The notes under the pieces: model-generated
The model's input: the letters and a program-made list of their open reading frames with translations, nothing else
What the model was told of the DNA's origin: nothing
Database searches by the model: none
In this document: piece after piece, positions 26,768 to 37,317 of the stretch
Layout: each line of letters begins with the position of its first letter
Position numbering within the stretch: position 1 is the first letter of the stretch
Assembly (NCBI RefSeq): GCF_000010525.1
Contig: NC_009937.1
Span: 3,973,501 to 4,037,500 of the forward strand
Reading direction: 5' to 3'
Source of the DNA: Azorhizobium caulinodans ORS 571
GTDB taxonomy: Bacteria; Pseudomonadota; Alphaproteobacteria; Rhizobiales; Xanthobacteraceae
Length of the DNA: 64,000 bases
Made by a program: the position numbers and the translations under genes

Positions 26768-27403
26768 CTACCAGCGCAGGGTGCGGCGGCCGAGCCCGTA
26801 GCCAACGACCGTGACGAGCAGCATGGCGAGCACGTACCAGGTCGCGACGAACAGCGGGCTGTCGTCCGGGCAATGCCAGGCATAGACGGCGGCCCCGATC
26901 GCCCCGGCCGCAAGACCCGCCGATGCGCCGGCGAGCCCCGGATTCTCCGGCGCGCCATCCCGCAACGCCCAGAAGAAGGCGGCGAACGGCACCAGCGCGA
27001 GAACGGGAATGAAGAAGACGCAAAAGGCCGCGTGCTGCCCCTCAAGGCTCGCGGCCCAGCGACCCCGCGGAACGACCGTGAGTTCCAGAACCACACCGAG
27101 CACCAGCAGGGCCAGAGGCAGGCCGAGCACCACCAGACGCCGGCCGGCGCTTCGGCCCGGCAGCCCCGCGACCAGAAGCACGGCGCAGCCCGCGGCCGCC
27201 ATCAGGAGCGTGAACCCAAGCTTGAACTGGACGCGGACGGTTTCCACCGCGGCCCCGAGATCCGGTCGGATGCCGATGGTCACCAGCAGGATAAGCCCGG
27301 CGCAGACGACCCCCGCGGCGATCGCCAGGGCAAGAACGGTGGAAAGCCGCACCCGGACCGGCGCGTCCTCCGCCATCAGGCGGATCAGGTCATCGGTCTT
27401 CAT
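26768..27403 (-). CDS. nrsF: NrsF-type (DUF1109) six-helix anti-sigma factor
   Basis: Inner-membrane protein of 211 residues with six predicted helices, matching DUF1109/NrsF, the anti-sigma partner of SigF-type ECF sigma factors. The short cytoplasmic N-terminus (MKTDDLIRLMAEDAP) is the expected sigma-binding part. Cys128 (HAAFCVFF) and Cys178 (AWHCPDDSP) are 50 residues apart; as I recall, Caulobacter NrsF has two conserved cysteines with the same spacing that are needed for the response to heavy metal. The gene overlaps the sigma gene by 14 bases, so the pair is made together. Confidence 0.9.
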   Translation of the reverse strand: MKTDDLIRLMAEDAPVRVRLSTVLALAIAAGVVCAGLILLVTIGIRPDLGAAVETVRVQFKLGFTLLMAAAGCAVLLVAGLPGRSAGRRLVVLGLPLALLVLGVVLELTVVPRGRWAASLEGQHAAFCVFFIPVLALVPFAAFFWALRDGAPENPGLAGASAGLAAGAIGAAVYAWHCPDDSPLFVATWYVLAMLLVTVVGYGLGRRTLRW

Positions 27404-27956
27404 GGGGCTCGCTCCGGTAAATCTTGGCCAGCGTCTTCAGCGCGCGATGCAGCGCCACGCGCACGGCCCCCTCGGTCATCTTCAGGCGCGCCGCAGTCTC
27501 GCGCACGCCCGCCCCCTCCAGAGAGATGGAGCGGACGATATCGCGCTGCGGATCGCGCAGATGTCCCAGCATCTGTAAGGCATCGAGCCGCTCCGTTCCG
27601 TCCGCCACGGGTGCCGCCTCCAGCGTCTCCATCACATCCTCGATGGGCGTCGTCGGTTCACGCCCGCGCCGGCGCAGGCTGTCGATCAGCTTGTTGCGCA
27701 CGATGGCCGAAAGCCACGGTCCGATGGGCCGCGCCGGGTCCCACGTACCGCGCTTGAGATGCACCGCCAGCAGGACTTCCTGCACGATATCCTCCGCCTC
27801 TCCCGCCGGTGCGCCGAAGGCCCGGCAGCGGCGCTGCGCGAGCATCCGCAGATGCGGCGTCACCTCGCTGAGGAACCGCCGATAGGCGGCGCCGTCGCCC
27901 GCAAGCGCAAGGCGCATCCATTCGCTCCACTGCTGGTCGCGGGCCGAACCGTCCAC
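27390..27956 (-). CDS. sigF: ECF RNA polymerase sigma factor, SigF type
   Basis: Alternative sigma factor of 188 residues with region 2 (GEAEDIVQEVLLAVHLKRG; GPWLSAIVRNKLIDSLRRR) and region 4 (GVRETAARLKMTEGAVRVAL), the latter being the helix-turn-helix that reads the -35 box. There is no region 3, as expected for the ECF class. The GTG at 27956 is used because family members have about a dozen residues before the first helix; ATG 27917 with GGAG upstream is an alternative. A promoter-like element at 27970-27995 would give a very short leader before the GTG. It probably controls itself, nrsF and the bufferin operon. Confidence 0.92.
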   Translation of the reverse strand: MDGSARDQQWSEWMRLALAGDGAAYRRFLSEVTPHLRMLAQRRCRAFGAPAGEAEDIVQEVLLAVHLKRGTWDPARPIGPWLSAIVRNKLIDSLRRRGREPTTPIEDVMETLEAAPVADGTERLDALQMLGHLRDPQRDIVRSISLEGAGVRETAARLKMTEGAVRVALHRALKTLAKIYRSEPHEDR

Positions 27957-27969
27957 CCCTGTCCACCCT

Positions 27970-27995
27970 TACGTTGCGGCGATCTGGAATGTTAC
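27970..27995 (-). promoter_or_regulatory. Predicted SigF-type promoter of sigF-nrsF
   Basis: Minus-strand GTAACA (27995-27990), exactly 16 bases, then CGTA (27973-27970). It is identical in sequence and spacing to the element upstream of the divergent bufA and close to the GTAACC-N16-CGAA consensus that I recall for Caulobacter SigF. Positive autoregulation is inferred. Confidence 0.75.
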
Positions 27996-28114
27996 GTCAT
28001 GACGAAGAAAGAATGCGCGGCGTTCCGCGCGATGGCATTGGCCGCTTTGTCCCGCGCCGCACCGCTTTCGACAAGGGGCGGCGGACGGCGCCCGGAAAAA
28101 TTCTGCGCGGCCCT

Positions 28115-28140
28115 GTAACAGCGGCCGCCCCCTCTCCGTA
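28115..28140 (+). promoter_or_regulatory. Predicted SigF-type promoter of the bufferin operon
   Basis: Plus-strand GTAACA (28115-28120), exactly 16 bases, then CGTA (28137-28140), followed by AT. The bufA start lies about 46 bases downstream, which leaves room for a normal leader with a GGAG ribosome site. It matches the element in front of sigF. Confidence 0.78.
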
Positions 28141-28186
28141 ATCCCCCATGTCAGCCCGATGCGGCTGCCGATCACGGAGATTTCCC

Positions 28187-28468
28187 ATGAAGACCCGCGT
28201 CCTTTCGCTCGCTCTGGCGGGCTCGATCGCCTCTGCCCTCGCCGTTGCCGCGACCACTTCCGCCTCGGCCGCCGAGATGGAGAAGTGCTACGGCGTGGCC
28301 ATGAAGGGGCAGAACGACTGCGCCGCCGGCCCCGGAACCACCTGCGCCGGCACCTCCAAGGTGGACTACCAGAAGAACGCCTGGAAGCTCGTGCCCAAGG
28401 GCACCTGCGAGACCATCAAGGTGCCGGGCGGCATGGGTTCGCTGAAGCAGGGTCCCGCTCCCGTCTGA
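28187..28468 (+). CDS. bufA: Bufferin-type RiPP precursor (DUF2282, BufA family)
   Basis: Exported peptide of 93 residues. A signal peptide ([20 protein letters not shown], cut near ASA-AEM) leads to a mature part of about 64 residues with four cysteines: Cys34, Cys45, Cys53 and Cys74 ([32 protein letters not shown]). This is the DUF2282 pattern of bufferins, metal-binding peptides in which an MNIO enzyme converts some Cys residues to thiooxazole-type heterocycles before export; others may form a disulfide. The gene starts at ATG 28187 with GGAG upstream, not at 28148. It leads an operon with the maturase, its partner and a DoxX protein. Confidence 0.9.
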
Positions 28469-28532
28469 GACACACCGACACGCCCCGCGCGGCGCCCGAG
28501 GGCGCCGCGCATCCGCCTTCGAGGAGATGAGC

Positions 28533-29384
28533 ATGCAGTCATCACAACTGCCTTCGCGCGCGGGCATCGGCTTCAAGCCGCAGCACTTCGCGGACATCGT
28601 GGCCTCCCGCCAGCCCCTCGGCTTCTTCGAGGTGCATGCGGAGAACTACATGGGCGCCGGCGGCCCGCCCCATGCCCAGCTCCGCCGGCTGCGGGAGGAT
28701 TATGCCCTCTCGATCCATGGCGTCGGCCTGTCCATCGGCGCCATGCAGCCGCTCGATGCGGACCATCTTGAGCGCCTGCGCCTCCTGTGTGATCGCTACG
28801 AGCCGGAGAGCTTTTCGGAGCACCTCGCCTGGTCGAGCCACGACAGCGTCTATCTCAATGACCTGCTGCCCCTGCCCTATACGGACGGGACGCTCAGCCG
28901 CGTGGTGGAGCATGTGGACCGCGTGCAAACGCGCCTCCGGCGGCAGATGCTGCTGGAGAATCCGGCCACCTATCTCACCTTCGCCGAGAGCACCCTCGCG
29001 GAGACCGATTTCCTCGCCGAAGTGGCCCGGCGGGCCGGCTGCGGCCTGCTGCTGGACGTGAACAACGTCTTCGTGGCGGCCACGAACCACAATACGGACC
29101 CCGCCGCCTATCTCGCCCGCTTTCCTCTCGAGGCGGTCCGCGAAATCCACCTGAGCGGGCATTCGCGGACCACGGACGAGACCGGCGCGCCCCTGCTCAT
29201 CGATTCCCACGACACGCCGGTCACCGACCCTGTGTGGGCGCTCTATGCGGACGTCATTGCGCGAACCGGCCCCGTACCGACGCTGATCGAATGGGACAAT
29301 GACGTGCCCGCCTGGCCGATCTTGCGCGCCGAGGCCCTGCGCGCTGAGACGGTGCTCGCAGGCGCTCGGCAGAATGCGGCGTGA
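28533..29384 (+). CDS. bufB: MNIO-class maturase (DUF692, BufB family)
   Basis: Cytoplasmic multinuclear non-haem iron oxidative enzyme of 283 residues with a TIM-barrel fold, expected to modify cysteines of the BufA precursor. Family signatures are visible in order: [74 protein letters not shown] and IEWDNDVP, supplying the His, Glu and Asp iron ligands. ATG 28533 is chosen because GAGGAG lies six bases before it; the ATG at 28527 would directly abut that site. Substrate recognition is expected to need the partner protein encoded next. Confidence 0.95.
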
Positions 29385-29391
29385 GGGCACC

Positions 29392-30174
29392 ATGATGAGC
29401 GCCCTCCCCGCCGCCCAAAGCGCATTTGCCGCCGCTCTCACCACGGCTGATGCGCCGATGCCGGTCGGCCTCGTGTGCTGGACCGGCGCGCCGCCGGAAC
29501 GCCGCTTCGAGGTCTATCGCAACAATGTGCGGGCGAGCCTCACCAGCGCGCTCGCCACCGCATTCCCGGCCGTGGAGCGCGTCGTCGGCGCGGAATTCTT
29601 CGCAGCCATGGCCCAGGCCTATGTGCAGGCCCATCCGCCGCGCTCGCCTGTGCTGCTCGGTTATGGCGCGGACTTTGCCGATTTCGTCGCGGGCTTCGAG
29701 CCAGCGGAGGCCCTGCCCTATCTCGCGGACGTCGCCCGGCTCGAAACGCTGCGTCGCCGGGCCTATCACGCGGCGGATACGCTGCCGCTCGCTCTGGATG
29801 CTCTCTCGGCGGTGCCGCCGGAGGCCATGGCCGACCTCACCTTCACGGCGCACCCCGCTCTCGGCGTGCTCCGCTCGCCTTTCCCGGTGCACACCATCTG
29901 GGCCATGAACGCTGGCGAGGTGCCCCTTCGACCCATCGAGGACTGGGCGCCGGAAGACGTGCTGGTGAGCCGTCCGCAGATGCGCGTGAGCGTCAGCCGG
30001 CTGCCTGTGGGGGCCGCCGTTTTCATCGAACATCTGACAGCGGGCCGCAACCTCGCGGACGCGCTGGAAGCCGCCGAGGCCATGGCCTCCGGTTTCGACG
30101 TCGTGACCGCCCTCGGCCTTGCCCTCACCGCCGGCGCCTTTTCCGCCATCCATTGGGAGGCACCCCATGACTGA
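29392..30174 (+). CDS. bufC: DUF2063 partner protein of the MNIO maturase (BufC/HvfC family)
   Basis: A 260-residue cytoplasmic protein with the DUF2063 N-terminal domain (FAAALTTADAPMP; RRFEVYRNNVRASLTSALATAFPAVERVVG) and a C-terminal domain ending in ALGLALTAGAFSAIHWEA. Members of this family partner DUF692 enzymes in bufferin and oxazolin pathways and are thought to present the precursor peptide. It begins seven bases after bufB and overlaps the DoxX gene by eight bases. The ATG at 29392 is followed by a second ATG at 29395; either could start. Confidence 0.92.
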   Translation: MMSALPAAQSAFAAALTTADAPMPVGLVCWTGAPPERRFEVYRNNVRASLTSALATAFPAVERVVGAEFFAAMAQAYVQAHPPRSPVLLGYGADFADFVAGFEPAEALPYLADVARLETLRRRAYHAADTLPLALDALSAVPPEAMADLTFTAHPALGVLRSPFPVHTIWAMNAGEVPLRPIEDWAPEDVLVSRPQMRVSVSRLPVGAAVFIEHLTAGRNLADALEAAEAMASGFDVVTALGLALTAGAFSAIHWEAPHD

Positions 30175-30658
30175 CGCCCACAGCTCCGGACGCACCAACG
30201 GCGCACATCTGCTGGACCGCGGACGCGCGGTGCTGGAGCGCATCCCCTCCGGCTTCATCAGCCTTCTGGCGCGGCTCTCCATCGCGGGGGTCTTCTGGCA
30301 ATCGGGCCAGACCAAGCTTGAGGGCTGGCATGTCTCCGACAGCGCCGTCTTCCTGTTTCAGGAAGCATACCGCCTGCCGCTCATCAACCCCTGGCTTGCC
30401 GCCCATCTCGCGGCCATCGCGGAGCATCTGTTTCCGGTGCTGCTGGTCATCGGCCTCGCGAGCCGCCTCTCAGCTCTGGCGCTGCTCGGGATGACGCTGG
30501 TGATCGAGATCTTCGTCTATCCGGACGCCTGGGCGACCCATGGGACGTGGGCCGTCTGCCTTCTCGCTGTCATCGCACGCGGACCGGGCTGGCTCGCCCT
30601 CGACAACCTGATCGACCGCCCTCGCATGCGCCCCCTTCCCGCGGCCAGCCAGGGCTGA
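30167..30658 (+). CDS. DoxX family membrane protein of the bufferin operon
   Basis: Inner-membrane protein of 163 residues with four predicted helices and the DoxX-type start [22 protein letters not shown]. DoxX proteins are regular members of DUF2282/DUF692/DUF2063 operons (HvfE in the Haemophilus oxazolin pathway), but their function there is unknown; a quinone-linked or redox role is often suggested. ATG 30167 lies inside the end of bufC and follows GGGAGG. It is the last gene of the operon. Confidence 0.9.
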
Positions 30659-30827: not shown

Positions 30828-32603
30828 ATGGCCCACATGCGTGCCGTCGATGCTGCCGTTCGCGTCCTGGAGAAGGAGGGCATCAGCTGCGCCTTCGGTG
30901 TTCCGGGCGCCGCGATCAACCCGTTCTATTCCGCGCTGAAGGCGCGTGGTTCCATCCGCCACGTGCTCGCCCGGCACGTGGAAGGCGCCTCCCACATGGC
31001 CGAGGGCTACACCCGGGCCGTCGCCGGCAACATCGGCGTGTGCATCGGCACCTCCGGTCCCGCCGGCACGGACATGATCACCGGCCTCTATTCGGCCTCG
31101 GCGGATTCCATCCCGATCCTGTGCATCACCGGCCAGGCCCCCCGCGCCCGCCTCTATAAGGAAGACTTCCAGGCGGTCGATATCGAGAGCATCGCCAAGC
31201 CCGTCACCAAGTGGGCGGTCACGGTGCGCGAGCCGGCGCTCGTTCCCATGGTGTTCCAGCAGGCGTTCCACGTCATGCGCTCGGGCCGCCCCGGCCCGGT
31301 GCTCATCGACCTGCCGATCGACGTGCAGATGGCCGAGATCGAGTTCGACGAGGACACCTACGCCCCGCTCCCCGTTTACAAGCCCGCCGCCACCCGCGCG
31401 CAGGCGGAAAAGGCCATCGCCATGCTGGCGAAGGCTGATCGCCCGCTCATCGTTTCCGGCGGCGGCATCATCAATGCGGATGCCTCCGACCTGCTGGTGG
31501 AGTTCGCGGAGCTCACCGGCGTGCCGGTCATCCCCACCCTCATGGGCTGGGGCACCATTCCCGACGACCACCCGCTGATGGCCGGCATGTGCGGCCTCCA
31601 GACCTCGCACCGTTACGGCAATGCGACGATGCTGGCCTCCGATTTCGTGTTCGGCATCGGCAACCGCTGGGCCAACCGCCACACCGGCTCGGTGGAGGTC
31701 TACACCAAGGGCCGCACCTTCATCCACGTGGACATCGAGCCGACCCAGATCGGCCGCGTCTTCGGCCCGGATTTCGGCATCGTCTCCGATGCCGGGGCGG
31801 CGCTGAAGCTGTTCATCGAGGTGGCGAAGGAATGGAAGGCCGCCGGCAAGCTGCCGGACTGGTCCGCCTGGGCCAAGGAATGCTTCGGCCGCAAGGAGAC
31901 GATGCTGCGCAAGTCGCACTATGACAACGTGCCGCTGAAGCCGCAGCGCGTCTATGAGGAGATGAACGAGGCGTTCGGCCGTGACGTGACCTATGTCACC
32001 ACCATCGGCCTCTCGCAGATCGCCGGCGCGCAGTTCCTGCATGTCCACCATCCGCGCCACTGGATCAACTGCGGGCAGGCCGGCCCGCTGGGCTGGACGC
32101 TGCCGGCGGCTCTCGGCGTGCGCGCCGCGGACCCGGACCGGAAGATCGTGGCGCTCTCGGGCGACTATGACTTCCAGTTCCTCATCGAGGAGCTGGCGGT
32201 GGGCGCCCAGCACAAGCTGCCCTACCTGCACGTGGTGGTGAACAACTCCTATCTCGGCCTCATCCGGCAGGCCCAGCGCGGCTTCGAGATGGACTTCGAG
32301 GTGAGCCTCGCCTTCGAGAACATCAATTCGGAGGAAGCCGGCGCCTATGGCGTGGACCATGTGGCGGTGGCCGAGGGCCTCGGCTGCAAGGCCATCCGGG
32401 TGCGTACGCCGAATGAGTTCAAGGATGCCTTCTCGCAGGCCGAGGCCCTGATGGAAGAGCATCAGGTGCCGGTGGTGATCGAGTTCATCCTGGAGCGGGT
32501 GACGAACATCGCCATGGGCGTCGAGATCGACAAGGTCAACGAGTTCGAGGAGATCCTCGACCTGCCCCGCGCCACCGCGCGCGTGGTGGAGCCGGCCGAG
32601 TAA
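30828..32603 (+). CDS. gcl: Glyoxylate carboligase (tartronate-semialdehyde synthase)
   Basis: Thiamine-diphosphate and FAD-dependent enzyme that condenses two glyoxylates to tartronate semialdehyde plus CO2. The 591-residue protein has the three-domain fold of acetolactate-synthase relatives: [26 protein letters not shown], and the ThDP-Mg segment LSGDYDFQF ... [10 protein letters not shown]. Residue 51 is Val ([14 protein letters not shown]) where other ThDP enzymes have the catalytic Glu; this Val is diagnostic for Gcl. The ATG at 30828 follows GGGGAGG. It heads the glycerate-pathway genes hyi, glxR and pyk on the same strand. Confidence 0.97.
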
Positions 32604-32626
32604 GCCCCGGTCTCCCATGTCTTACC

Positions 32627-32655
32627 TGCCGTGCCCTCCCGCGAGGCGCACGGCA
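32627..32655. repeat. Stable hairpin after gcl
   Basis: TGCCGTGC-CCTC pairs with GAGG-C-GCACGGCA around a CCGC loop, giving 12 base pairs with one bulge, 24 bases past the gcl stop. No T-run follows, so it may act as an mRNA-protecting or attenuating structure rather than a classical terminator. Confidence 0.5.
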
Positions 32656-32857
32656 GGCGTGCCGCGCGGGTGTCCGGTGCGGCATGTCCCGAGGCGCGGC
32701 GGCGGGACGTCCGGCCGTCCGGAACGGGGCAAGCCGGGGCACTTGAGCCGATCTGTCCCGCCCGTCCGCCCTATCCCTTTCACACGGAACGTTTTACGGC
32801 TTGGATTGCCAAACAATCGAAGCCTGACTTGCCCAGGCTCAGCCAGCGGAGAGGTGA

Positions 32858-33637
32858 ATGCCCAAGTTTGCTGCCAATCTGACCATGCTCTGGAACGAGA
32901 TCGACTTCCTGGACCGCTTCGCCAAGGCGGCGGAGGCCGGTTTCAAGGGCGTGGAGTATCTCTTCCCCTACGCCTATCCCAAGGAGGAGCTGGCCGAGCG
33001 CCTTGAGAAGCACGGGCTCACCCAGGCGCTGCACAATCTGCCGGCCGGCGAGTGGGCGAAGGGCGAACGCGGCATCGCCGTCCTGCCCGACCGCGTCGGC
33101 GAGTTCCAGGACAGCGTCGGCACCGCACTCGAATATGCCAAGGTGCTGAAGACGCAGACGCTGAACGTGCTGGCGGGCATCGCCCCCAAGGACGTGCCGG
33201 CGGAGAAGATCTACGAGACGCTGGTCTCGAACCTGAAATTCGCCGCCGCCGAGGCCAAGAAGGCGGGCATCCCGCTGGTGGTCGAGGCCATCAACACCCG
33301 CGACATTCCCGGCTTCTATCTCAACACCACCAAGCAGACGCTCAGCTTGCTGGATGACGTGGGGCCGCAGGACGTCTTCTTCCAGTACGACATCTACCAC
33401 ATGCAGATCATGGAGGGCGATCTCGTCCCCACACTGCGCGCCAACATGGCCCGCATCAAGCACATCCAGCTCGCGGACAATCCGGGCCGCGGCGAGCCGG
33501 GCACGGGCGAGATCAACTACCCGTTCATCTTCAAGGCCATCGACGATGCCGGTTACACCGGCTGGATCGGTGCCGAATACAAGCCCGCGACGACCACCGA
33601 CGCCGGCATCGGCTGGTTCGCCCCCTACAAGGGCTGA
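32858..33637 (+). CDS. hyi: Hydroxypyruvate isomerase
   Basis: Cytoplasmic TIM-barrel enzyme of 259 residues that interconverts hydroxypyruvate and tartronate semialdehyde. It starts with KFAANLTMLWNEIDFLDRF and has FKGVEYLFPYAYP, the conserved VVEAINTRDIPGFYLNTT, the metal-site FQYDIYHMQIMEGD and the closing EYKPATTTDAGIGWF. GGAGAGG precedes the ATG. It lies between gcl and the tartronate-semialdehyde reductase, the usual order for glyoxylate use. Confidence 0.95.
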   Translation: MPKFAANLTMLWNEIDFLDRFAKAAEAGFKGVEYLFPYAYPKEELAERLEKHGLTQALHNLPAGEWAKGERGIAVLPDRVGEFQDSVGTALEYAKVLKTQTLNVLAGIAPKDVPAEKIYETLVSNLKFAAAEAKKAGIPLVVEAINTRDIPGFYLNTTKQTLSLLDDVGPQDVFFQYDIYHMQIMEGDLVPTLRANMARIKHIQLADNPGRGEPGTGEINYPFIFKAIDDAGYTGWIGAEYKPATTTDAGIGWFAPYKG

Positions 33638-33721
33638 GCTGCCAGAACCATTCCGCCAAGGACACCGCCCGCCGCCCGGCCTGCCGGGCGTGCGCGGCGC
33701 ACATGCACGGGAGCACGCACA

Positions 33722-34600
33722 ATGAACGTGGGTTTCATCGGTCTCGGCATCATGGGCACCCCCATGGCCGGCCACCTCATCGACGCCGGGCACACCCTCT
33801 TCCTCTATGACGTGGTGAAGGTGCCCGCCGAATTGACCGACAAGGGCGCCACGGCGGTCGCCTCCTCCGCCGAGGTGGCGAAGAATGCGGACGTCATCAT
33901 CCTCATGGTGCCGGACACCCCGCACGTGGACGAGGCGCTGTTCGGCGCCGGCGGCGTTGCGGAAGGCCTCAGCGCCGGCAAGATCGTGGTGGACATGAGC
34001 TCCATCTCGCCGGTGGAGACGAAGAAGTTCGCCGAGAAGATCAACGCGCTCGGTTGCGATTATCTCGACGCCCCGGTCTCCGGCGGCGACGTGGGCGCCA
34101 AGGCCGCCTCCCTCACCATCATGGTCGGCGGCCCGGAAAAGGCCTTCGAGACGGTGAAGCCGCTGTTCGAGAAGATGGGCAAGAACATCACCCTCGTCGG
34201 CGGCAATGGCGACGGCCAGACCACCAAGGTCGCCAACCAGATCATCGTCGCCCTCACCATCGAGGCGGTGGGCGAGGCGCTGCTCTTCGCATCCAAGGCG
34301 GGCGCCGACCCGGCCAAGGTGCGCCAGGCGCTGATGGGCGGCTTTGCCTCCTCGCGCATCCTGGAGGTGCACGGCGAGCGCATGGTGAAGCGCAACTTCA
34401 ACCCCGGCTTCCGCATCGAGCTGCACCAGAAGGACCTGAACCTCGCGCTGTCCTCCGCGCGGGCGCTCAAGGTGGCGCTGCCAAACACCGCGACGGCGCA
34501 GGAGCTGTTCAACGCCGTGGCCGCCCGCGGCGGCTCCAAGCTCGATCACTCCGCCATGGTGAATGCGCTGGAACTGCTGGCGAACCACGACATCGCCTGA
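33722..34600 (+). CDS. glxR: 2-hydroxy-3-oxopropionate (tartronate semialdehyde) reductase
   Basis: NAD(P)H-dependent reductase of 292 residues that converts tartronate semialdehyde to D-glycerate. It belongs to the beta-hydroxyacid dehydrogenase family: cofactor motif VGFIGLGIMGTPMAGHLIDAG, substrate loop YLDAPVSGGDVGAK, catalytic Lys in TTKVANQIIV and the C-terminal HQKDLNLALSSA. It is placed 84 bases after hyi with GGGAG before its ATG. Two hairpins follow, the second being terminator-like. Confidence 0.94.
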   Translation: MNVGFIGLGIMGTPMAGHLIDAGHTLFLYDVVKVPAELTDKGATAVASSAEVAKNADVIILMVPDTPHVDEALFGAGGVAEGLSAGKIVVDMSSISPVETKKFAEKINALGCDYLDAPVSGGDVGAKAASLTIMVGGPEKAFETVKPLFEKMGKNITLVGGNGDGQTTKVANQIIVALTIEAVGEALLFASKAGADPAKVRQALMGGFASSRILEVHGERMVKRNFNPGFRIELHQKDLNLALSSARALKVALPNTATAQELFNAVAARGGSKLDHSAMVNALELLANHDIA

Positions 34601-34611
34601 CCGTTTGCCCG

Positions 34612-34665
34612 CCATGGCCCGGCGACGGGCCATGGCGGTGACGCACCTGCGTCACCGCGCCTTTG
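34612..34665 (+). terminator. Double hairpin with terminator between glxR and pyk
   Basis: First a 9-bp stem (CCATGGCCC with GGGCCATGG), then a perfect 11-bp palindrome (GCGGTGACGCA with TGCGTCACCGC) followed by GCCTTTG. The weak T-run suggests partial termination, which would set pyk expression below that of the upstream genes. Confidence 0.6.
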
Positions 34666-34726
34666 TATCAAGTGCGATCAGGACAAAGGCGGCACGGCAG
34701 ATGTCGCCCAATCGGGGGAGACATCC

Positions 34727-36202
34727 ATGCCGCTGAAGCGCAACCGCGCCACGAAAATCATCGCCACCGTGGGCCCGGCCTCCAACACGCCGGAGAAGCT
34801 CAAGGCCCTCTTCCTGGCCGGTGTCGATGTGTTCCGGCTCAATTTCAGCCATGGGACGCAGGCCGACCATGGCATCGTTCTCGGCCATATCCGCCGCCTT
34901 GAAGCCGAGATCGGCCGCCCCATCGGCGTCATCGCCGATCTTCAGGGCCCGAAGCTGCGCGTCGGCCGCTTCACCGAGGGTGCCATCACCTTCACCCCCG
35001 GCAAGCGCCTGCGCTTCGACGCAGATGTCGCGACCATGGGCGATGCCGACCGCGTGCCCATTCCCCACCCCGACATCATCGAAGCCCTGACCATCGGCAG
35101 CACCGTCCTGTGCGACGACGGCAAGGTGCGCCTGAAGGTGGTGGGCAAGGGCGACGGCTGGCTCGACGCGGAAGTGGTCAGCGGCACGCGCCTGTCCAAC
35201 AACAAGGGCTTCAACATCCCCGACGTGGTGCTGCCGCTCTCCCCTCTGACGGAGAAGGACCGCGCCGACCTCGCCTTCGCCGTGGAGCAGGGCGTGGAGT
35301 GGATCGCTCTGTCCTTCGTGCAGCGCCCGGAAGACATCCACGAGGCACGCGACCTCATCAAGGGCCGCGCTGCCGTGATGCTGAAGATGGAGAAGCCGGC
35401 GGCCGTCGAGCATCTGGAAGAGCTTGTGGAGCTTTCCGATGCCATCATGGTGGCGCGCGGCGATCTCGGCGTGGAACTCTCGCTGCCCGAACTGCCCGCC
35501 CTCCAGAAGCGTATGATTACGGAATCCCGCAGACAGGGTCGCCCGGTGATCGTGGCGACCCAGATGCTGGAGAGCATGATCTCCGCCCCCGTGCCCACCC
35601 GCGCGGAGGTCTCCGACGTCGCCACCGCCGTCTATGAGGGCGCGGACTGCGTGATGCTCTCCGCCGAGAGCGCGGCGGGCCAGTATCCCGTGGAAGCGGT
35701 CTCCTTCATGGACGAAATCATCCGCCACGTGGAGCGCGACCCCGGCTACCGGCAGGTGCTGGATGCGACGCAGGCGGAATGGGGCAAGACCATCGGCGAT
35801 GCCATGACCAAGGCCGCCTACCAGACGGCGCTCGCCGTCGATGCCGCCGCCATCGTCGCCTATACGCTCTCCGGCACCACGGGCCTGCGCGCCGCACGCG
35901 AGCGCCCGCCCATGCCCATCCTCGGCATCACAACCCGCGCCGACACCGCCCGCCGGCTCGCCCTCTCTTATGGCGTGCATGCGGTGAATGTGGGCGAGGA
36001 CATCCATTCCTTCGGCGAGATGGTGGACCGCGCGGTGCAGGTGGCCGTGGAGCAGCAGCTGGCCGCGCCCGGCGATCGGCTCGCGATCACGGCCGGCGTG
36101 CCCTTCGCCAAGCCCGGCACCACGAACATCCTGCGGGTCACCACCATCGGGGATACCGACCCGCCGTCGAAGTTCGACACGGACGGTGCGACCGCAACCT
36201 GA
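34727..36202 (+). CDS. pyk: Pyruvate kinase
   Basis: Transfers phosphate from phosphoenolpyruvate to ADP, giving pyruvate. The 491-residue protein starts with RATKIIATVGPAS and has the signature VMLKMEKPAA with the catalytic Lys and the following Glu, plus VARGDLGVEL, VIVATQMLESM and EGADCVMLSAESAAGQYP. In alphaproteobacteria a pyk copy is often next to glxR, where it completes the glyoxylate to glycerate to pyruvate route. The ATG follows GGGGGAGA. No glycerate kinase gene is visible in the window. Confidence 0.96.
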   Translation: MPLKRNRATKIIATVGPASNTPEKLKALFLAGVDVFRLNFSHGTQADHGIVLGHIRRLEAEIGRPIGVIADLQGPKLRVGRFTEGAITFTPGKRLRFDADVATMGDADRVPIPHPDIIEALTIGSTVLCDDGKVRLKVVGKGDGWLDAEVVSGTRLSNNKGFNIPDVVLPLSPLTEKDRADLAFAVEQGVEWIALSFVQRPEDIHEARDLIKGRAAVMLKMEKPAAVEHLEELVELSDAIMVARGDLGVELSLPELPALQKRMITESRRQGRPVIVATQMLESMISAPVPTRAEVSDVATAVYEGADCVMLSAESAAGQYPVEAVSFMDEIIRHVERDPGYRQVLDATQAEWGKTIGDAMTKAAYQTALAVDAAAIVAYTLSGTTGLRAARERPPMPILGITTRADTARRLALSYGVHAVNVGEDIHSFGEMVDRAVQVAVEQQLAAPGDRLAITAGVPFAKPGTTNILRVTTIGDTDPPSKFDTDGATAT

Positions 36203-37092: not shown

Positions 37093-37317
37093 ACTCGTGC
37101 AATTATTTGAGTTTAACACCTTTTTACGACACCTCACGAACGCGCGATCCACACACACGGACCCGTGAAATCATCATAACAACTTTGTTACGCTGCGGCG
37201 CACACATTCGTTACTTGCGATCCGGCGCCCGGTACATAAATTCCCGCCTCGAGGAAGCGAAGCAATCAAGCTTCATCCCCGGCCAATCCCCCCAACTGGC
37301 TGGACAGGAGAGAAACA

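Follow-up and report, generated by a model that had tools for sequence, protein, structure and literature searches.

A bufferin operon probably controlled by SigF/NrsF in Azorhizobium caulinodans ORS 571, and its promoter elements across NrsF-bearing genomes

Does the extracytoplasmic function (ECF) sigma factor SigF of Azorhizobium caulinodans ORS 571 control the bufferin operon that diverges from it and, if so, in answer to which signal? This question is raised by a locus in a stretch of 64,000 nucleotides of the genome (NC_009937.1, positions 3,973,501 to 4,037,500 of the forward strand; hereafter the window), in which sigF and the gene of its putative anti-sigma factor, nrsF, run divergently from bufA-bufB-bufC-doxX. 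A first-pass annotation of the window had read it as a bufferin locus linked to SigF/NrsF, with bufA under SigF control. This predicted control is supported by a pair of promoter elements whose occurrence follows that of NrsF in the sampled genomes, and we consider it likely, for the scheme taken as a whole, that a Buf1 bufferin operon is here governed by an ECF16 SigF/NrsF pair in the manner known from Caulobacter. The novelty lies in the promoter evidence and the predicted regulon; the system itself is of a known kind.

The six proteins of the locus all exceed their Pfam cut-offs, which confirms the annotated layout of an ECF sigma factor gene overlapping an anti-sigma factor gene and divergent from DUF2282, DUF692, DUF2063 and DoxX genes. 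The overlap between sigF and nrsF, both on the minus strand, is 14 bases and that between bufC and doxX 8 bases; the start of sigF is ambiguous (GTG at 27956 or in-frame ATG at 27917). The interval initially given to the locus, 27390-30658, holds the other five genes and leaves out nrsF (26768-27403). NCBIfam cut-offs were passed by BufB (MNIO_BufB, 390.2 bits versus 310) and SigF (NF009165, 279.6 versus 198). NrsF missed the narrow equivalog NF042994 (95.9 bits versus 300), being a Pfam homologue rather than a narrow equivalog, and two further proteins lie under NCBIfam equivalog cut-offs (BufC/HvfC, 53.3 versus 142; DoxX/HvfX, 49.4 versus 80). Sigma2 and sigma4 domains adjoining a DUF1109/NrsF six-helix anti-sigma factor place the regulators with ECF16 pairs, and a DUF2282 precursor with a signal peptide and four cysteines, accompanied by an MNIO maturase, a DUF2063 partner and DoxX, places the operon with Buf1 clusters. 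Two other precursor types were rejected for the bufA product: BufA2 (21.8 bits versus a cut-off of 60) and the oxazolin or EGKCG captophorin type, as the BufA sequence has no EGKCG repeats. The locus is more than a chance assemblage, since PF10048, PF06532 and PF05114 were found in one copy each in the whole single-contig genome (5,369,772 bases), all of them here, and since the gene order recurs in relatives.

The remarkable part of this locus is the outward-facing pair of elements in the 230-base gap between sigF and bufA, rather than the frequency of the element across the genome. Indeed, approximately 1e-4 elements per strand would be expected in this gap at the genome's own rate. The published SigF element of Caulobacter is GTAACC-N16-CGAA (PMC3511200), and the two elements of A. 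caulinodans, GTAACA-N16-CGTA, are of the same type. The sigF promoter likewise agrees with the ECF16 autoregulatory type (tGTAACc-N16-CGAA), CGTA replacing CGAA as it does in 30 of 76 sigF sites. Among 109 sigF-nrsF loci, source locus included, the element precedes sigF in 76, against none for the reversed control and none in the first 300 bases of the gene; with a spacing of either N16 or N17, the count rises to 91 (reversed, 3). The opposite strand of the same upstream stretches, where divergent promoters would lie, carries 32 elements in the 109 loci.

Of 297 genomes of the order, 120 yielded an NrsF match (116 above the cut-off) and 154 a DUF2282 match. The 100 NrsF loci that were fetched were chosen by hand, mostly down the score order, so that weak matches are under-sampled; 30 of them have the bufferin operon beside sigF-nrsF, divergent in 26 and collinear in four. 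Both elements are present in 19 of these 26 divergent relatives, hence in 20 of 27 divergent loci with the source locus, and neither is present in the four collinear ones. Of two congeners, one (L231) has the full locus and the other (L232) sigF-nrsF with no operon in the fetched stretch. When the best 80 named NrsF loci listed, mostly from Rhizobiaceae, are considered, bufA occurs in 63 and the element in 48 of these 63 (reversed control, 0). The layout is thus common, and the annotation's view of a system rarely characterised outside Caulobacter does not hold, all the more so as it had overlooked RpoE7/EcfR7 of Sinorhizobium meliloti. Within the same 80 loci (L239-L318), we also observed two adjacent bufA matches in 30, 28 of which have the whole operon, and an operon lying collinear and upstream of sigF-nrsF in 21.

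The element also follows NrsF where the two loci are far apart. With a spacing of 16-17 bases accepted, it precedes 25 of 36 bufA copies located near nrsF, that is in the same fetched locus (source locus and tandem copies counted, the two tandem copies of L080 sharing one counted site), 12 of 21 distant copies in NrsF-positive genomes, and none of 20 copies in genomes without detected NrsF. The distant set comprises 20 copies hand-picked from those listed plus L199 (NrsF-positive, no site), and the NrsF-negative set 19 of the best-scoring loci in genomes without an NrsF match plus L210 (no site); NrsF-negative calls come from a search that scored at most ten candidates per genome, some genomes being incomplete. 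Before L199 and L210 joined, the contrast was 12/20 versus 0/19 (Fisher p = 4.5e-5), and 6/9 versus 0/9 at the level of families (p = 0.009; family labels sorted by hand, no families shared). The site lies 198-199 bases upstream of bufA in L224-L226, all from one family, versus 74-122 elsewhere.

Several results weigh against SigF control of bufA. Across the genome of A. caulinodans, matches to the reversed pattern are no fewer than those to the true element (8 matches versus 5 for GTAACM-N16-CGWA; 15 versus 7 exact matches for GTAAC-N17-CGWA in 5.37 Mb), so that the genome-wide frequency is no more than chance and single sites elsewhere mean little. The element is missing before 9 of the 21 distant and 11 of the 36 near bufA copies. 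Moreover, ancestry may lie behind part of the contrast between NrsF-positive and NrsF-negative genomes, because the families represented in the two sets hardly overlap (one shared). Could the neighbourhood then be coincidental, SigF controlling itself only and the bufABC-doxX promoter being unrelated? Such a coincidence would agree with the lack of an element before bufA in 9 of 31 order loci with an adjacent operon (5/27 divergent and 4/4 collinear, source locus included). We nevertheless regard it as very improbable given the perfect outward-facing element before bufA in A. caulinodans, the absence of the element from all 20 NrsF-negative copies, and the control by SigF or RpoE7 published for two relatives (PMC3511200, PMC6180224), RpoE7 overexpression being reported to raise the divergent DUF692/DUF2063 operon in S. 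meliloti (PMC6180224).

The annotation had also called the system self-contained, which now appears doubtful. The SigF regulon probably extends beyond the locus, because a third intergenic SigF site precedes an unlinked MsrQ-like gene (table 1). This is in agreement with Caulobacter, where the MsrPQ genes are reported as copper-induced SigF targets (PMC8224329). In a scan of 30 loci, out of 32 matches in 27 genomes, the element was found before the MsrQ-like gene in 7 of 17 NrsF-positive genomes, within the same genus and beyond, and in none of 10 NrsF-negative ones (p = 0.026; a site more than 1 kb upstream in L167 was left out). Three results go the other way: the contrast falls to 6/17 versus 0/10 (p = 0.057) for sites at the usual 55-68 bases upstream, a site with one mismatch occupies the corresponding position in L151, an NrsF-negative genome, and the msrP gene of the source genome, located elsewhere, showed no SigF element when scanned. 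Two other genome-wide matches fall within predicted reading frames, which by eye resemble a porin and an acetyltransferase. Separately, an exact GTAAC-N17-CGTA match at 37189-37214 (minus strand) has no convincing gene behind it on that strand, and a perfect GTAAC-N17-CGAA at L319:1501-1526 (plus strand; C1:1028243-1028268), before an ORF resembling dienelactone hydrolase by eye, is a possible further SigF target.

Table 1. Features of the SigF/NrsF-bufferin locus and of the unlinked MsrQ-like gene. Positions are those of the window unless preceded by L035 or C1.
Feature	Position	Strand	Evidence
nrsF, anti-sigma factor, 211 aa, conserved C128 and C178	26768..27403	-	PF06532, 183.7 bits
sigF, ECF sigma factor (ECF16-like)	27390..27956	-	Sigma70_r2 45.8 / r4_2 36.7 bits; NF009165 279.6
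SigF-type promoter element before sigF-nrsF, GTAACA-N16-CGTA	27970..27995	-	exact pattern match; ends 13 bases before GTG
SigF-type promoter element before bufA, GTAACA-N16-CGTA	28115..28140	+	exact pattern match; ends 46 bases before ATG
bufA, Buf1 (DUF2282) precursor, 93 aa	28187..28468	+	PF10048, 95.2 bits
bufB, MNIO (DUF692) maturase	28527..29384	+	MbnB_TglH_ChrH 360.2 bits; NCBIfam MNIO_BufB 390.2
bufC, DUF2063 partner protein	29392..30174	+	PF09836, 100.3 bits
doxX, DoxX-family membrane protein	30167..30658	+	PF07681, 66.5 bits
MsrQ-like gene, unlinked	L035:620-1465	-	PF01794; 126.7 bits versus MsrQ cut-off 130
SigF-type site before MsrQ-like gene	L035:1501-1526; genome C1:2903229-2903254	-	perfect match; 35 bases from element end to ATG

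The surroundings of the locus are ordinary. A glyoxylate-use cluster lies downstream (30828-36202, plus strand: glyoxylate carboligase, hydroxypyruvate isomerase, 2-hydroxy-3-oxopropionate reductase and pyruvate kinase), and a foreign island was rejected, the tested neighbours (a methyl-accepting chemotaxis protein and the glyoxylate-use genes) being unremarkable, with no search aimed at mobile genes.

How would the signal enter this circuit? In an AlphaFold2 model of NrsF (48 sequences, mean pLDDT 87.5), residues 20-42, 56-79, 88-110, 125-147, 155-175 and 183-208 form six long helices, in line with the six-helix anti-sigma factor that had been annotated; a hydropathy scan alone passes its threshold at only five places. 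Two cysteines, 50 residues apart, would lie at the periplasmic face of this model if the N-terminus is inside; they correspond to the pair of importance in Caulobacter and Bradyrhizobium. C128 is found in 109 and C178 in 106 of 110 aligned NrsF proteins, and among the 33 NrsF with a bufferin neighbour they are found in 33 and 32, respectively. As they are equally conserved where no bufferin adjoins, these cysteines appear as a mark of the NrsF family and not of the bufferin link. No solved relative emerged from a fold search with the model (best E 1.4) or from phmmer at E up to 1, so that no metal site can be named in NrsF by homology. In OsrA of Bradyrhizobium, C129, the equivalent of C128, is reported as seemingly needed for sigma binding and C179 for the response to H2O2 (PMC3420878); binding and inhibition of the sigma factor by the anti-sigma factor are published for OsrA/EcfF (PMC3420878) and for AbcS/BcrS (PMC8315932).

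On the side of the product, BufA starts with a hydrophobic segment (5-23) that, judged from hydropathy alone, is a Sec-type signal peptide, and its four cysteines, C34, C45, C53 and C74, recur in every one of 75 aligned DUF2282 proteins. BufB has 3BWW and the methanobactin MbnB structures as sequence relatives; its candidate metal ligands (H64, H99, E144, D177, N180, H208, D226, H228 and E255), presumably including those that bind iron, are present in 69 of 69 aligned proteins. BufC had no match in the Protein Data Bank at E up to 0.001. In Buf1-type precursors, the two central cysteines are reported to be modified and the outer two to form a disulfide (PMC12452194). Caulobacter Buf1 is described as carrying thiooxazoles, chelating copper and improving growth in copper excess. 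The oxazolin initially cited as a cysteine-modified comparison has, according to later work, been reassigned as a 5-thiooxazole peptide.

The scheme that we favour joins these pieces. At rest, NrsF in the inner membrane would hold SigF, until an envelope stress, most likely excess copper, acts at its periplasmic face around C128/C178 and releases the sigma factor. Free SigF would then transcribe its own operon, the divergent bufABC-doxX and the unlinked msrQ-like gene. Before BufA leaves by the Sec route, BufB and BufC would convert its central C45 and C53 to thiooxazoles; C34 and C74, on the outside, would be joined in a disulfide, and the periplasmic product would bind copper, while the MsrQ-type protein, from its putative role, could help to repair oxidised methionines. 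Gene identity and order, the paired promoters, the association with NrsF, the conservation of the cysteines and the six-helix model come from the present analysis; SigF release, copper induction, cysteine chemistry and copper binding are borrowed from what has been published on relatives.

The scheme is weakest where the signal is concerned. Copper is the best-supported trigger, and we favour it as the natural signal in A. caulinodans: in Caulobacter, sigF and nrsF are reported to be induced by copper, as are MsrPQ and the two DUF692 operons, and cells mutated in sigF are copper-sensitive (PMC8224329). Yet the published record also contains results that speak against it. Promoter fusions of S. 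meliloti were not induced by H2O2, cadmium or chromate, copper not being among the agents named (PMC6180224), a Cupriavidus cluster is reported to be without effect on copper resistance, which other copper determinants may mask, and relatives of NrsF answer H2O2 in Bradyrhizobium (PMC3420878) and HOCl in Brucella (PMC8315932). The sensing of a metal by the NrsF cysteines, as proposed in the annotation, thus stands as far as the presence of both residues; the further step is weakened by the failure of cadmium and chromate in S. meliloti, by these oxidant responses and by cysteines equally conserved without a bufferin.

Oxidants are the chief rival to copper. The locus would then respond mainly to HOCl, H2O2 or similar compounds, the NrsF cysteines sensing oxidation, BufA serving as a thiol peptide that is sacrificed or buffers redox changes, and the msrQ-like gene contributing to methionine repair. 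Besides the responses in Bradyrhizobium, where C179 is needed, and in Brucella, such a role would fit the element before the msrQ-like gene, the conservation of the same two cysteines in NrsF without a bufferin neighbour, and the peptides, Met-rich by eye, found at the bufA position in L047 and L051. However, CC3255 and CC3252 of Caulobacter are reported to rise at most twofold with H2O2, t-butyl hydroperoxide, paraquat or diamide (PMC3511200), the S. meliloti promoter is unresponsive to H2O2 (PMC6180224), and Buf1 chelates copper and improves growth in its excess. A mainly oxidative signal therefore seems to us rather unlikely. That the bufferin serves another metal in this lineage (gold, silver, mercury, cadmium or chromium) is improbable: a related Cupriavidus cluster is reported as gold-, silver- and copper-induced, SigF targets of Caulobacter are cadmium- and chromate-induced (PMC3511200) and MerC-bufferin fusions exist (PMC12452194), whereas cadmium and chromate failed in S. 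meliloti (PMC6180224) and the viability of Caulobacter under dichromate or cadmium is reported as not lowered by the loss of sigF, CC2906 or CC3255 (PMC3511200), when the sigF mutant is copper-sensitive (PMC8224329). As both alternatives dispute only the signal or the metal within the scheme, their probabilities and that of the scheme do not sum to one.

A broader proposal, which we advance as a tentative possibility, is that SigF/NrsF may act as a general switch for thiol stress in the envelope, with periplasmic outputs that can be exchanged between lineages and with MsrQ/MsrP accompanying it at a distance. All lineages would then share as their signal one chemical event at the two NrsF cysteines, such as Cu(I) binding or copper-driven oxidation, instead of one metal per species. 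In the NrsF loci, 149 SigF-type sites were detected, 31 of which are followed by no gene labelled sigF, nrsF or buf; some of these 31 are surely chance. A Pfam scan covered ten proteins behind the 31 sites. Six of them diverge from sigF: in L060 a CusF-like copper protein, in L049 a DUF1223 protein, in L121 a cytochrome b561, and in L045, L046 and L047 proteins with no Pfam match, that of L047 being Met-rich by eye. The other four lie elsewhere in their loci: a DUF1223 protein (L140), a cytochrome b561 (L125), a YHS-domain protein (L118) and a protein with no match (L048). These scanned neighbours support exchangeable outputs without establishing them. In L051, the peptide divergent from sigF is also Met-rich by eye.

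The analysis adds another alphaproteobacterium to a known copper-peptide circuit, with promoter predictions at the level of the base. The wider result is the SigF element before bufA in many sampled NrsF genomes, even with the loci far apart, and before none of the 20 NrsF-negative copies. Scattered reports from Caulobacter, S. meliloti and Brucella can thereby be drawn into one testable question, that of what NrsF senses. We found no paper on the A. caulinodans locus among the matches listed, in the open-access literature on Azorhizobium with sigma factors and copper and on ECF16 together with bufferins.

Among known systems, the closest parallels are as follows. In Caulobacter crescentus, sigF-nrsF (CC3253-CC3252) and CC3254-CC3257 are reported to hold the same six families side by side (PMC3511200, PMC8224329), their divergent order being read from gene numbering and the operon description. 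Besides the promoter type, the two loci share the NrsF cysteine pair (C131/C181 there, C128/C178 here), and the MsrPQ genes of the Caulobacter regulon have a counterpart in the msrQ-like gene with its element; Caulobacter differs in having another DUF2282-DUF692-DUF2063 operon and an msrP under SigF control, whereas A. caulinodans has one operon and an msrP without the element. In S. meliloti, the strongest targets of rpoE7-ecfR7 (ECF16) are reported as the divergent four-gene SMb20530-SMb20527, with DUF692 and DUF2063, called orthologous to CC3254-CC3257 and preceded by the same promoter type; the rpoE7-ecfR7 locus is absent from some strains (PMC6180224). Buf1 bufferins or captophorins, as described, have the same four-cysteine DUF2282 precursor, MNIO, DUF2063 and DoxX (PMC12452194, PMC12668002), a 2025 survey lists sigma and NrsF genes in such clusters (PMC12452194), and compared with the published accounts of Buf1 clusters we found no difference beyond sequence divergence. 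Brucella BcrS/AbcS-bcrXQP (related sigma factor, NrsF-family anti-sigma factor, GTAAC...CGAA promoters) and Azospira SigF with MrpX-YedYZ (related sigma factor) both have MsrPQ-type genes as here; unlike here, their peptide is Met-rich and not a cysteine-modified bufferin, and the signal is HOCl or reactive chlorine (PMC8315932). With its gene arrangement and promoter type already published elsewhere, the A. caulinodans locus is a well-formed but ordinary example of this family of circuits.

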